36,295 nucleotides of DNA from assembly GCA_903882645.1 (NCBI GenBank), contig CAIRXZ010000079.1:1-36295 (forward strand), given 5' to 3'. This stretch comes from an uncultured Acidobacteriia bacterium. Its GTDB lineage: Bacteria > Acidobacteriota > Terriglobia > Bryobacterales > Bryobacteraceae. The position numbers and the translations under genes are program-made. The notes below the pieces were generated by a model that did no database searches, was not told the DNA's origin, and saw nothing but the letters and a program-made list of their open reading frames with translations. Below are positions 10,020 through 20,439 of this stretch, piece by piece (position 1 is the first letter of the stretch; every line of letters begins with the position of its first letter).

Positions 10020-10098
10020 AAGACCGCTCCCTTACGGTCGCGGCTCTGAATGACGCACACGGCTGCAAACCGAGCCGCGACCGTCAGGGAGCGGTCTT
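10020..10098. repeat. Inverted pair of family C repeats, large hairpin downstream of asnS
   Basis: The left arm at 10020-10046 (AAGACCGCTCCCTTACGG and on) is the reverse complement of 10072-10098 over 27 bases with one mismatch, around a 25-base loop. It starts 5 bases past the asnS stop and ends 20 bases before the arginase start, both leftward genes. A transcript would fold into a very stable hairpin that could terminate, attenuate or protect RNA. The arms are two copies of the repeat found singly at 9024-9051. Confidence 0.75.
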
Positions 10099-15236: not shown

Positions 15237-15941
15237 ATGAGCGGCGCGGCGGGGCTCAAAAAGCAGTTCGAATCGGTCCTCGGCGGGGCGTTGGAGTGGC
15301 AGGCCCGCCCGGCCCCGGAACTGGTTCGCAGCGGAGTTCCCGAAGTCGATCTGGCTACCGGCGGGCTGCCGCGCGGCTGCCTGACGGAAATCTTTGGGGC
15401 GGCTTCCTCGGGGCGCACCAGCCTGCTGGTCGCCATCCTCGCCGAAGCCGCGGCGCGCGAGGAGGTTTGCGCGCTGGTGGACGCCGAAGACGCTTTCGAC
15501 CCCGCCTCCACCGCCGCGGCCGGCGTGCGCCTCGACCGCCTCCTTTGGGTGCGCTGCCGCCATAACGCCGAGCACGCGCTCAAAGCGGCCGACCTGCTGG
15601 TTCAGGGCGGCGGTTTCGGGCTGGTGGCCATGGATTTCGGCGATACGCCGCCCGCCGCGGCGCGCCGCATTTCGCTCACCTCCTGGTTCCGGCTGCGGCG
15701 CGCGGTGGAACACACGCCCACCGTGCTGCTGGCCGTGGCGCGGCAATCGAACGCCAAAACCTGCGCCTCGTTGATGCTGGAATGCGCGAGGGAAGGGACG
15801 GAATGGGCAGGCGAATCGCCTGCCCCACCGGCAGGCCAGGAGGCCTGCCCCACTTTACTGCGCGGCATCCGCGTACACATCGCGCGCCGCAAGCCCGGAC
15901 GCGCCGTTGCTGCCTCGTTCCTTTGCGGAGCACTGGAGTAG
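15237..15941 (+). CDS. imuA: ImuA, RecA-like accessory protein of the translesion mutasome
   Basis: ImuA is a RecA/SulA-like protein that works with ImuB and the error-prone polymerase DnaE2 in damage-induced mutagenesis. The 234 residues contain [22 protein letters not shown] and the P-loop-like [11 protein letters not shown] near residue 53. [12 protein letters not shown]-like sequence follows ([19 protein letters not shown]), then [13 protein letters not shown] in the region of a RecA-like loop. Between about residues 190 and 205 an in-frame double palindrome adds [15 protein letters not shown] just before the final beta segment ([13 protein letters not shown]). The ATG follows a direct repeat AGGCGAATA that may supply the ribosome site. 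imuB starts 1 base after the stop. Confidence 0.88.
15805..15849. repeat. Two tandem family B palindromes inside imuA
   Basis: GGGCAGGCGAATCGCCTGCC and one more C form a 21-base hairpin at 15805-15825. GGCAGGCCAGGAGGCCTGCC at 15830-15849 is a second hairpin with an 8-bp stem. Both are open in the imuA frame and encode a Pro/Ala/Gly-rich insert. The same GCAGGC/GCCTGC theme occurs at 3538-3560. Confidence 0.75.
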
Positions 15942-15942
15942 C

Positions 15943-17223
15943 ATGTTTGCCTGTCTCCATGGCCCGGGCAATCTGGCGGCGCTGGCGTTCGAGTTCTCGC
16001 CGGTGGTGGAGCGGACCGCGCCCGATACCGTGACGCTGGACGCTTCCGGCCTCGACCGCCTCTTCGGATTCCCCCAGGACATCGCCGCCGCCATCGCGCG
16101 CCGGGCCGCCGAAACGGGCGTGAAGGCGAACCTTGCGCTGGCGTCCAACCCCGATACGGCCATTTGCGCCGCGCGCGGCTTTCCAGGCGTCGGCATCGTC
16201 CCATACGGCGATGAAGCCAAGTTTCTCGGCCCGCTGCCGGTCGCATCGCTCGCGCCTTCTCTCGAGTTGCTGGAAACGCTTGAGCGTTGGGGCATCCGCC
16301 GGCTTCGGGACCTGGCCGCGTTGCCGCCGCTGGGCATTGCCGAGCGGCTCGGCCCCGAAGGACTGCGCCTGCGCGAGCTGGCGCGTGGCGAGGCGCGGCG
16401 CAAGCTAGTCCCGCTCGAAGATCCGCCGCGCTTCGAAGACGGGATCGACCTGGACTATCCGGTGGACCTGCTGGAGCCGCTGGCGTTTCTGCTGGCGCGC
16501 CTGCTGAACGGATTGTGTACGCGTCTGGCCGCGCGCGCCCTGGCGGCCAATGAGCTGCGCCTGCGCCTGACGCTCGAGAATCGCGCGGCGCACGAGTGCA
16601 CGCTGCGGCTGCCCGTGGCCGCGCTCGATCCCAAAACGTTTTTGAAATTGCTGCAACTCGATCTGGCCGCGCATCCGCCCGCCGCGCCCGTCGTCCACGT
16701 TTGGATGGGGATGAACCCGGTAAAGCCGCGCTCCGCGCAGAGCGGGCTGTTCGTCCCCGCCGCGCCCGAGCCGGTGAAACTGGAGCTGACGCTGGCGCGC
16801 ATCAAAGCGATTGTCGGGGAAGAGCATGCAGGCTCGCCGGAACTGCTCGATACGCACCGCCCGGATGCGTTCCGGATGAGCCGGGTATTACAGCGCCAAC
16901 CCTCGGACACAGCGCGGCTTCGCCGCGTGGGCCGATTGACAATCGGCCCGCAGGTTTCCAACCTGCCCCACTTGGGTTTCCGCATCTTCCGTCCCCCGCT
17001 TCCCGCGCGCGTAGCCCTCGCTTCCGGGCGGCCGGGCTTCATCGCCGCCGAAGGCATTCGCGGCAAGGTGCTGGAACTGGCTGGCCCCTGGCGCACTTCG
17101 GGCGACTGGTGGACCTCCGACCCCTGGTCCCGCGACGAATGGGACATCGCCCTCAGCGACGGCGCCATCTACCGGGTCTACTGCGAGCCGCGGGGTTGGT
17201 TTGTGGAAGGCAGCTATGACTAA
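15943..17223 (+). CDS. imuB: ImuB, Y-family polymerase-like mutasome subunit (short N-terminus)
   Basis: ImuB resembles Y-family polymerases but usually lacks catalytic residues; it bridges the beta clamp, ImuA and DnaE2. The start is taken as the ATG at 15943 (MFACLHGPGNLAALAFEFSP), one base after imuA, giving 426 residues. Landmarks are VTLDASGLDRLFGFP near residue 35, LETLERWGIRRLRDLAALPP near 110, and the little-finger region to KPRSAQSGLFVPAAPEPVKLELTLARI near 280. The usual first 60-70 residues (palm with its metal ligands) are missing, so it is very probably non-catalytic. A triple hairpin at 16913-16966 inserts about 20 residues before the FRPPLPARV segment. A ribosome site overlaps the imuA end. 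Confidence 0.88.
   Translation: MFACLHGPGNLAALAFEFSPVVERTAPDTVTLDASGLDRLFGFPQDIAAAIARRAAETGVKANLALASNPDTAICAARGFPGVGIVPYGDEAKFLGPLPVASLAPSLELLETLERWGIRRLRDLAALPPLGIAERLGPEGLRLRELARGEARRKLVPLEDPPRFEDGIDLDYPVDLLEPLAFLLARLLNGLCTRLAARALAANELRLRLTLENRAAHECTLRLPVAALDPKTFLKLLQLDLAAHPPAAPVVHVWMGMNPVKPRSAQSGLFVPAAPEPVKLELTLARIKAIVGEEHAGSPELLDTHRPDAFRMSRVLQRQPSDTARLRRVGRLTIGPQVSNLPHLGFRIFRPPLPARVALASGRPGFIAAEGIRGKVLELAGPWRTSGDWWTSDPWSRDEWDIALSDGAIYRVYCEPRGWFVEGSYD
16913..16966. repeat. Three back-to-back perfect hairpins inside imuB
   Basis: CGCGGC-TTC-GCCGCG (16913-16927), GGGCCGATTG-A-CAATCGGCCC (16929-16949) and GCAGGTT-TCC-AACCTGC (16950-16966) follow one another almost without spacing, all with perfect stems. 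They are read in frame as part of ARLRRVGRLTIGPQVSNLP, a stretch that does not look like ImuB core sequence. The third hairpin shares the GCAGG/CCTGC theme of family B. Confidence 0.78.
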
Positions 17224-17234
17224 CGAACGCCGCG

Positions 17235-17272
17235 GGCGGGGCATGCTCGCCAGGGCCGGGCATGCCCGGCCC
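17235..17272. repeat. Family A palindromes between imuB and dnaE2
   Basis: GGGCCGGGCATGCCCGGCCC at 17253-17272 is a perfect 20 nt palindrome. It is preceded at 17235-17251 by a diverged relative (GGCGGGGCATGCTCGCC). Together they fill the 66-base gap between imuB and dnaE2. A hairpin here could tune the ratio of the two proteins. Confidence 0.7.
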
Positions 17273-17289
17273 CTACAGCGCATATAGGG

Positions 17290-20200
17290 GTGGCTGTGAT
17301 ACAACACGCCTACGTCGAGCTACACGCCCGCTCCGGCTTCAGCTTCCTGGAGGGCGCTTCCGTGCCCGAGGAACTGGTTGGCGCGTGCGCCGAAGCCGGC
17401 ATGCCGGCCATGGCCCTGGTGGACCGCAACGGCCTCTACGGCGCGCCGCGCTTCCACATGGCGGCGAAGAAAGCGGGCGTCCGCGCGCATATCGGCGCGG
17501 AGATCGATTGCGTCAACGGCGCCGCCTATCCCCTGCTGGCGGAAACGCGCGAAGGCTACCAGAACCTGTGCCGCCTGATTACGCGCATGAAACTGCGCGC
17601 CCGGAAAGGCGAGGGCGCGGCCACACTGGAAGAGCTCGCCGAATTCGCCCGCGGCCTGGTCTGCATCACGCGCCGCCCGGACGCGCGTCTGCTCGAAATC
17701 TTCGGCCGGGGCAACGTCTACGCCGAAATCGAGCGCCATTACAGCCGCGAGGAGGAGGCGCGCAACCAGGCCGTAGTCGAGCGCGCGCGGCGGCTCGGCA
17801 TTCCGCTGGTGGCGGCCAACGGCGCCGCCTACGCCACGCCCGCCCGGCGCGAGTTGCTCGACGTCTTCACCTGCGTGCGAAACAAAGTGACGCTCTCCGC
17901 GGCCGGCCGGCTGCTCGAACGCAACTCCGAGCGCCACGTCAAGACGCCCGCCGAAATGGCGCGCCTCTTCGCCGATCTGCCGGAAGCCATCGCCGCCACG
18001 CTCGAAATCTCCTCGCGGTTGCAATTCACCCTGGCCGATCTCGGCTACGAATTTCCGCGCTACCCCGCGCCCGAGGGTGAAACGCAGATGTCCTTCCTCC
18101 GCAAACGCGCCGATGAGGGCGCGCGCCGCCGCTACCAGCCCTATCACGAGCGCGCCCGCCGCCAGATCGAACGCGAGCTGGCGCTCATCGAAAAGCTCAA
18201 ACTGCCCGGTTACTTCCTCATCGTCTGGGACATCGTGCGGTTCTGCAAGGAGAACGGCATTCTGGCGCAGGGGCGCGGCTCGACCGCCAACAGCGCCGTA
18301 TGCTACGCCCTGGAAATCACCGCCGTCGATCCCGTGGGCATGGACTTGCTGTTCGAGCGCTTCCTCTCCGAGGAACGCGGCGAGTGGCCCGATATCGATC
18401 TCGACCTCCCCAGCGGCGAAAAGCGCGAGCGCGTCATCCAGTACGTCTACCAGCGGTTTGGAAAACTCGGCGCCGCCATGACCGCCAACGTCATCACCTA
18501 TCGCGGCCGCTCGGCCGCGCGGGAGGTGGGCAAGGCGCTGGGCTTCGAAATCGCCACGCTCGAAAAGCTCGCCGGGATGGCGCACTCCTGGGAATGGAAA
18601 GACCCCAAGGACACCAGCGAGCGCCAGTTCCAGGAAGCCGGCTTCGACCTCAACCGTCCGCGCGTGCGCAAATTCTTCGAGCTTTACCGCATGGCGCAGA
18701 ACCTGCCGCGCCACCTCGGCCAGCATTCGGGCGGCATGGTGATCTGCCAGGGCGCGCTCGATTCCGTCGTGCCGCTCGAGCCCGCCGCCATGCCCGACCG
18801 CGTGGTGGCGCAGTGGGACAAGGAAGACTGCGCCGATATGGGGATCATCAAGGTGGATCTGCTCGGCCTGGGCATGATGGCCGTGCTCGAAGACTGCCTC
18901 AAGCTGATCCCCGAAGCCTACGGCGAGGAAGTGGACCTCGCGCGCCTGCCGCCCGGCGATCCGGTCGTATTCGAAGCCCTGCAAAAGGCCGACACCGTCG
19001 GCATGTTTCAGGTGGAGAGCCGCGCGCAGATGTCCTGTCTGCCGCGTCTGATGCCGCGCTGCTTTTACGACATTGTGGTCCAGGTGGCCATCATCCGGCC
19101 CGGCCCCATCGTCGGTAAAATGGTGCATCCCTATTTGAACCGGCGGCAGGGCCGGGAAGCGCCCGATTGCCTGCACCCTTCGCTCGAACCGGTGCTCCGG
19201 CGGACGCTCGGCGTACCGCTTTTCCAGGAGCAGTTGCTGCGCATGGCCATGATCGCCGCCGGATTCACCGGCGGCCAGGCCGAAGAACTGCGCCGCGCCA
19301 TGGGCTTCAAGCGCTCCGAACAGCGCATGGCCGAAATCGAAGTGAAGCTCCGCGCCGGCATGGAGCGCAACGGCATCGCCGGCCCGGTGCAGGACGCCAT
19401 CGTCCGTTCCATCACCTCATTCGCCTTGTACGGCTTCCCCGAATCCCACGCCGCCAGCTTCGCTCTGATCGCCTACGCCAGCGCGTATTTGAAATGCCAC
19501 TACCTGGCCGCCTTCACCTGCGCCATGCTCAACAACCAGCCGATGGGCTTTTATTCCCCCGCCATCCTGATTAAAGACGCCCAGCGCCACGGCCTCCGCG
19601 TCCTGCCAGTGGATGTAACAATATCCGCCTGGGACTGCACCATGGAATTTGGTGGGGCGGACCCCCTGGTCTGCGGCCGGCCCCCTGGCCGGCCAGTCGG
19701 CCGGAAGGCCGACGAGGGCGTCGGCCGCGGACCAGGGGGTCCGCCCCACCTTCGTCTCGGCCTCCGCTATGCCCGCGGTCTCCGCGAGGACGCCGCCCGC
19801 GCTATCCTGCGCGCCCGCCCCTTCACCAGCATCGACGACCTTGCGCTCCGCGCGCCCGAGCTCCGCAAGGACGAAATCAACCGCCTGGCCGAAATCGGCG
19901 CGCTGAATTCGCTGGACAGAATCCATCGCCGCGGCGCCCTTTGGCAGACGCAGCGCGCCGTCCTGCCGGTAGGCCCGCTGCTGGCCCCGCTGGAAGAAAC
20001 GGGCGCTACTTCGCCGCTCGCGCCCATGAACACGGAAGAGCGCCTGCGGGCCGATTACAGCGGTACGGGCGTGAACATCGGCAAGCATCCCATGGCTCAC
20101 CGCCGCGAGGAGATGAATGCGCTGGGAGTGACCCCCGCCGCCGGCCTGCCGGGTACTCCCAACGGCCGCCTGGTGCGCATCGCCGGATCGGTGATCGTGC

Positions 20201-20439
20201 GCCAGCGCCCGGGCACGGCCAAAGGCTTCGTCTTTCTCAGCATGGAGGACGAAACCGGCATCATGAACGCGATCGTCGCGCCCGCCACCTACGACCGCTA
20301 CAAATTGACGTTGCTGACCGAGCCGTTCCTGATGGTCTTCGGCGTCCTGCAAAACCTGGACGGCGTGATCTCGGTGAAAGCCGCCCGCATCGACCCGCTG
20401 CACGCCGGCCCCGCCGCCGAATCGCACGATTTCCATTGA
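17290..20439 (+). CDS. dnaE2: Error-prone DNA polymerase DnaE2 (ImuC)
   Basis: DnaE2/ImuC is a C-family polymerase alpha subunit used for translesion synthesis with ImuA and ImuB. The 1049 residues start at GTG 17290 ([23 protein letters not shown]), after an AGGGG ribosome site. An N-terminal PHP domain is followed by the polymerase core with [19 protein letters not shown] near residue 330 and the catalytic Asp pair in [15 protein letters not shown] near 367. Further on come [26 protein letters not shown] and [13 protein letters not shown]-like [17 protein letters not shown], and a C-terminal OB fold ([18 protein letters not shown]). An in-frame 100-base palindromic element adds about 33 residues at about 788-820, between WDCTMEF and [11 protein letters not shown]. 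Confidence 0.96.
19651..19750. repeat. 100 nt palindromic element inserted in frame in dnaE2
   Basis: The 28-base arms at 19651-19678 (starting GGTGGGGCGGACCCCCTGG) and 19723-19750 are reverse complements with a single mismatch. The 44-base interior holds smaller GC hairpins (GGCCGGCC; GTCGGCC/GGCCGAC). The frame stays open throughout and encodes a Gly/Pro/Arg-rich stretch ([15 protein letters not shown], then [16 protein letters not shown]). DnaE2 proteins normally pass straight from the WDCTLE segment to LRLGLRYVKGL, which makes insertion clear; that comparison is from family knowledge. Confidence 0.82.

Follow-up and report, generated by a model that had tools for sequence, protein, structure and literature searches.

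A palindromic element within the dnaE2 gene

The window considered herein is the whole 36,295-nt stretch of DNA that was analysed, which corresponds to contig C79 of a draft genome (G000, 5.27 Mb in 366 contigs) from a soil bacterium. It carries dnaE2, whose product matches the NCBIfam model NF004225 (“error-prone DNA polymerase”) with 1183 bits over residues 6–1049, contains the Pfam domains PHP, DNA_pol3_alpha, finger, HHH_6 and OB, and has its closest named relatives in Bryobacterales, Bryobacteraceae and other Terriglobia MAGs. Upstream lies a gene that we call imuB-like from its context, and the two genes presumably make up a mutagenesis cassette. An inverted repeat of 100 nt sits within the intact dnaE2 frame, where an initial annotation, made from the letters alone, had placed a palindromic element. 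The features are as follows.

15907–17223, plus strand: imuB-like gene (Y-family polymerase relative), upstream of dnaE2; weak NCBIfam DNA polymerase IV matches, IMS below the Pfam cut-off
16927–16971, minus strand: a different REP, in frame in the imuB-like linker; GTGGGGCAGGTTGGAAACCTGC, stem 7, loop 3
17290–20439, plus strand: dnaE2 (error-prone DNA polymerase), open frame of 1049 aa; NF004225 and Pfam domains
19651–19750, no strand assigned: REPIN, an inverted REP doublet plus flanking G and C; from arm comparison, fold and family alignment
19652–19674, plus strand: left REP; GTGG, 1 nt, 7-bp stem, 4-nt loop
19657–19734, plus strand: codons 790–815, a low-confidence, apparently disordered turn (pLDDT <50) between strands 784–788 and 817–822
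19675–19694, plus strand: left inner hairpin GGCCGGCCCCCTGGCCGGCC, from sequence; layout shared by other copies
19707–19726, minus strand: right inner hairpin GGCCGACGAGGGCGTCGGCC (as read on the plus strand), from sequence; layout shared by other copies
19727–19749, minus strand: right REP, inverted

The arms of the repeat (19651–19694 and 19707–19750) are 44 nt each, 89% complementary and spaced by 12 nt, with five mismatches across all 44 nt and one (arm position 22) in the outer 28 nt. As RNA, the region folds at −99.9 kcal/mol, against a mean of −59.8 for shuffled sequences (z = −9.9, with 0 of 200 shuffles as stable). A REP is defined in the accessible part of PMC6006769 as GTAG or GTGG placed 0–2 nt 5′ of a stem of at least 7 bp with a loop of 2–5 nt, and with one G-T pair permitted such a unit was found at both ends of the doublet 19652–19749, in each case with GTGG, a spacer of 1, a 7-bp stem and a 4-nt loop (hairpin GTGGGGCGGACCCCCTGGTCYGC). 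Being inverted, the two REPs form a single hairpin, with two GC inner hairpins between them. The position of the palindrome, its 28-base arms with one difference and the further GC hairpins that they enclose had all been described in the initial annotation and agree with these data. On sequence grounds, the element is a REPIN, a known class in which, here, two inverted REP units surround two inner hairpins. An Rfam scan of the window returned no family at its gathering score.

Read in the dnaE2 frame, the element comprises 33 codons, and both of its flanks stay in one reading frame. The DnaE2 linker that holds it has 37 residues, compared to six in the shortest empty sites (G004, G086 and G113), which gives a net gain of 31 codons; at 93 nt, this change leaves the reading frame intact. 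About 33 added residues had been proposed earlier, a number that fits the element itself and slightly exceeds the net gain. It had also been proposed that the frame was restored by exact junctions or by a small target duplication. No target-site duplication of the kind that a MITE may leave, and no clean junction, is visible in ten pairs set side by side, in which the flanks differ between species, and from the linker lengths 5–7 nt of the empty linker were apparently replaced at insertion. The Gly/Pro/Arg-rich, in-frame peptide just before the LRLGLRY segment was recovered as previously described.

The AlphaFold2 model of DnaE2 (48 sequences) has a mean pLDDT of 83, while the insert averages about 32, versus 80 and 94 for the blocks 781–790 and 821–830. 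In this model the element lengthens a predicted beta-hairpin turn in the HHH_6 region, with the insert forming an apparently disordered turn that has a beta strand on either side. The 48-row DnaE2 alignment has its longest insertions at the element’s place (up to 37 aa, with 13 rows of at least 10 aa), whereas a second loop at residues 131–132 has more rows of at least 10 aa (21) but a maximum of only 23 aa.

The linker of the imuB-like neighbour

The REP at 16927–16971 is translated in frame as IGPQVSNLPH. The imuB-like linker could be read in the window and at 19 of 22 loci from relatives, with three contigs represented twice, and its length by the anchors used ranges from 11 to 78 aa. REPs by the above definition were found in this linker in the window and in G033 (L014, duplicate L086), the latter being of the type of the window’s DnaE2 element. 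These observations favour loops that are permissive wherever a genome is rich in REPs, rather than a target that is specific to DnaE2.

Two neighbouring GTGGGGCAGG hairpins lie upstream of the imuB-like gene (about 15800–15853, minus strand), and a palindrome around GGCCGGGCATGCCCGGCC lies between the imuB-like gene and dnaE2 (about 17238–17280). In G003 a similar palindrome, GGGACGGGCATGCCCGTCCC, is found inside the DnaE2 linker.

A dispersed family in the genome of the window

Contig ends hold several of the copies in the draft of G000 (366 contigs), so all copy counts given here are lower bounds. Seven further copies in G000 match 95–101 nt of the element region at 90–95% identity. A 23-nt arm pattern gave 141 genome matches at no more than one mismatch, 33 of them exact, versus 0 for the reversed control; among the matches listed, 67 were inexact, and most of these belong to a CCTCC sister type. 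The element thus occurs in many dispersed copies, as the REP/REPIN class requires. For the site survey 36 loci were fetched, and eight (L165–L172) were left out as they had no arm matching the pattern, so that the window element and 28 others of the same type in G000 were compared. Both inverted arms are kept at no fewer than 17 of these 29 sites examined in sequence (sorted by eye), and the other copies repeat the layout of REP and inner hairpin. The portion common to family members is 98 nt, GTGGGG...CCCCAC (19652–19749), and its flanks are mostly G and C, as in the window. The near-perfect arms, which the initial annotation had read as a sign of recent arrival or of selection for base-pairing, are a family trait and by themselves indicate neither in dnaE2.

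Across 17 doublets, 91 of 102 frames are free of stops, which means that in-frame survival is easy. Two of the other 28 sites lie clearly within genes, as judged by a rough codon score together with Pfam/NCBIfam for these two, which alone were scanned against the libraries, and by the rough codon score alone for the remaining 26, several sites being at contig ends; the score, which had six gene sequences as its training set, gives no more than a rough separation of frames. The two intragenic copies are in frame in an anhydro-N-acetylmuramic acid kinase gene and in a SNF2-like helicase gene. The helicase (L140, contig C46) resembles DISARM DrmD, although below the model cut-off.

Two further observations concern repeats in G000. 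Eight contigs (L151, L157, L152, L160, L162, L163, L164 and L165) start or end just past one of two related sequences (ATAAGCGCTAAGATAATGA...), and in each case this sequence abuts the GTGGGG side of a REPIN, a pattern that would fit a multi-copy insertion sequence with these REPINs as its target. In addition, positions 10070–10095 of the window hold a copy of GCTCCCTGACGGTCGCGGCTC, a repeat with which the DnaE2 loop is filled in another genome of the survey below (G093); matches in G000 to the insert of that loop number 103 in all.

RAYT genes flanked by REPs

In a genome of a different genus of the same family (G004, contig C78), a RAYT gene is bracketed by two inverted REPs of the window’s type, one of which is identical to the window’s right arm while the other differs by one loop base. 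Within G000, four of seven Y1_Tnp genes (one hit being below the Pfam cut-off) sit between inverted REPs of types other than the window’s. The nearest of them (contig C6) has CCTCC sister-type flanks, which are one loop base different from the window’s type. A RAYT gene of its own with the window’s REP type was not supported for G000, as none of the seven Y1_Tnp hits is flanked by that type; a draft genome leaves room for a cognate RAYT, and orphan REPs are possible as well. For both RAYTs that were scanned, the best NCBIfam hit is NF047646 (“REP-associated tyrosine transposase”), just below its cut-off (77.5 and 79.6 versus 80).

The DnaE2 loop is filled repeatedly across the family

We searched 150 genomes of the family, obtained a DnaE2 match at 1e-20 in 111 and could read the linker in 101, which together with 11 outgroups gave 112 linkers. 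Seven genomes without an anchor were dropped (G139, G105, G019, G153, G076, G090 and G125), and G069, G106 and G172 were also left out. For G119, which has two DnaE2 copies, the long-linker copy in a 450-aa open frame was the only one counted, and the named loci L077–L112, which partly duplicate the counted genomes, were kept out of the counts. The linker has 6–14 aa in 80 of the 101 family genomes and 15–50 aa in 21. Long linkers are concentrated in one clade (16/29, support 100/95) versus the rest of the family (5/72); the Fisher test (p = 4e-7) is descriptive only, the clade having been chosen after the tree was viewed. The initial annotation had asked for an alignment with relatives and had reasoned that the same residues in distant lineages would mark the sequence as native. 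The element, an acquired one, is absent from most family linkers, and similar residues occur in only G001 and, partly, G023 among the 112 linkers.

The fillings of the loop are diverse and include three REP sequences and two other dispersed palindromic families. The window’s REP type is present in G000 and G001 and, at one end, in G023; a GGGGCAGGCG REP fills the loop of G023 and G063, and a third REP doublet that of G088. The GCTCCCTGACGG palindrome fills the loop of G093, half of it is found in G171, and G103 carries another REPIN-like repeat. Sorting by eye added other palindromes (G158, G120) and tandem repeats (e.g., G087, G089, G079 and G133). Outside the family, the loop of L046 (G037) holds a tandem repeat of the GACGCGGG type that is about 35 aa long. 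The formal REP definition applies to 5 of the 23 family linkers of at least 14 aa and to 1 of the 78 shorter ones, and the fold test gave z under −4 for only some of the long linkers (G000, G001, G088, G093 and G120). Several fillings recur in their own genomes: the 53-nt filling of G088 has five more exact copies there (and no match in G063), that of G103 has one more copy at 92% identity across 121 nt, along with about thirty matches that are partial or weaker, and that of G093 has near full-length copies at 71–76%, with arms up to 100%.

Seven sister pairs with an ultrafast bootstrap of 100 differ in loop content (G023/G113, G103/G004, G093/G133, G158/G099, G079/G127, G063/G121 and G131/G087), which implies a minimum of seven changes in this loop. 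Two of these pairs are filled and empty sisters (G103/G004 and G023/G113), and the first is 95% identical across 720 nt of adjacent dnaE2. Because the contents differ, we take most of the changes to be probable gains, with loss possible in any single pair. The inserts of G000 and G001 might be a single inherited insertion. Their right junctions agree and a single base separates their left inner hairpins, but the right inner halves are not alike and the tree does not join the two genomes.

Proposed origin and possible consequences of the insertion

The explanation that we favour, with a probability of roughly 0.85 for the whole of it, is that a REPIN entered a turn of dnaE2 and has been tolerated as an in-frame disordered loop. 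On this view the doublet of inverted REP hairpins would be mobile but non-autonomous. A RAYT, which is an HUH tyrosine transposase that works on single-stranded DNA, would copy it in trans, and one copy would have entered the codons of the beta-hairpin turn in the HHH_6 region. A GC-rich family that is open in most frames, combined with a turn that accepts extra residues, would allow the net 93 nt to be tolerated. The insert would then be translated as a disordered Gly/Pro/Arg-rich loop within a full-length protein, with a near-neutral effect on the polymerase.

A rather unlikely alternative to this tolerated entry is that the loop is a preferred target, either because a local feature attracts REPINs or because a resident REP attracts more elements. 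G000, G001 and G093, which carry two repeat types, share one right junction, CCCCAC immediately ahead of the Leu codon of LRLGL. Together with the clade bias, in a clade picked with the tree in view, this speaks for such a preference. This common junction is the best hint of either site preference or an old scar, and a scar would account for CCCCAC also being present in G171 and in the short-linker G113. However, the left junctions differ among filled linkers, the loop is also occupied by tandem repeats, for which no transposase is required (G087, G089 and G079, by eye), and the imuB-like linker varies too, with the window’s REP type in G033, which points to loops that are permissive in general. 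That DnaE2 is native at this position, or that the insert is an assembly artefact, is extremely unlikely: although the genome is a draft whose contigs often end near REPINs, we rejected both on the short linkers of most of the family, the dispersed nature of the repeat, the single frame of both flanks and the inserts at the same place in other assemblies.

It is quite improbable that the insert is kept for a useful change of the polymerase, e.g., by giving the mutagenic complex a disordered loop of greater length. The seven sister pairs with differing content are in line with this, as is the available text of a 2013 survey that found REP tags in many repair genes, among them DnaE2, and raised the speculation that these might produce mutators (PMC3733652). 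Yet the fillings have no common sequence, the linker is short in 80 of 101 family genomes, and a neutral loop gives the same pattern. A broader reading, unlikely in our view, would make the DnaE2 turn and the ImuB-like linker recurrent landing pads for RAYT-mobilised hairpins, as a target or as a useful longer loop; if true, a transposon family would keep remodelling the cell’s mutator. The family offers a natural series: in close sister genomes, one polymerase occurs with and without inserts of differing origin, all of them at a single loop. This makes directly testable what was speculated in 2013, namely an effect on mutation rates of REPs within repair genes.

Comparison with known systems

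As in the REPINs and RAYTs of the accessible part of Bertels and Rainey 2011 (PMC3116915), the element is a doublet of inverted REP hairpins in many copies, with REPs beside RAYT genes. Unlike those described there, each REP is followed by a second, inner hairpin, the copy is intragenic and the host belongs to the Acidobacteriota, probably to the Bryobacteraceae; RAYT–REP pairs are here described in a lineage little covered by the literature that we found. The classic in-frame case is that of the Rickettsia palindromic elements (available part of PMC10969869), palindromes of about 100–150 bp in frame in protein genes. Our element likewise is an in-frame palindromic repeat in a protein gene, but from another lineage, and the likeness is one of description.

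Titles and abstract openings (subscription journals being mostly beyond reach) yielded no paper describing a recurrently filled DnaE2 loop. A close precedent is Di Nocera et al. 2013 (PMC3733652), whose accessible text reports GTAG/CGTC REPs and REP dimers in frame in DNA repair genes, DnaE2 among them, as well as different REPs at about the same recB site in two Xanthomonas species, and speculates that REP-tagged repair genes might produce mutators. Our element is similarly a REP structure in frame inside a repair gene. In that text other genes of the class carry their REPs at different sites, whereas here a single DnaE2 loop has received many fillings from several repeat families. The kind of event, an in-frame REP in DnaE2, has accordingly been known since 2013 from the available part of that survey, and its recurrence at one loop is the new part.
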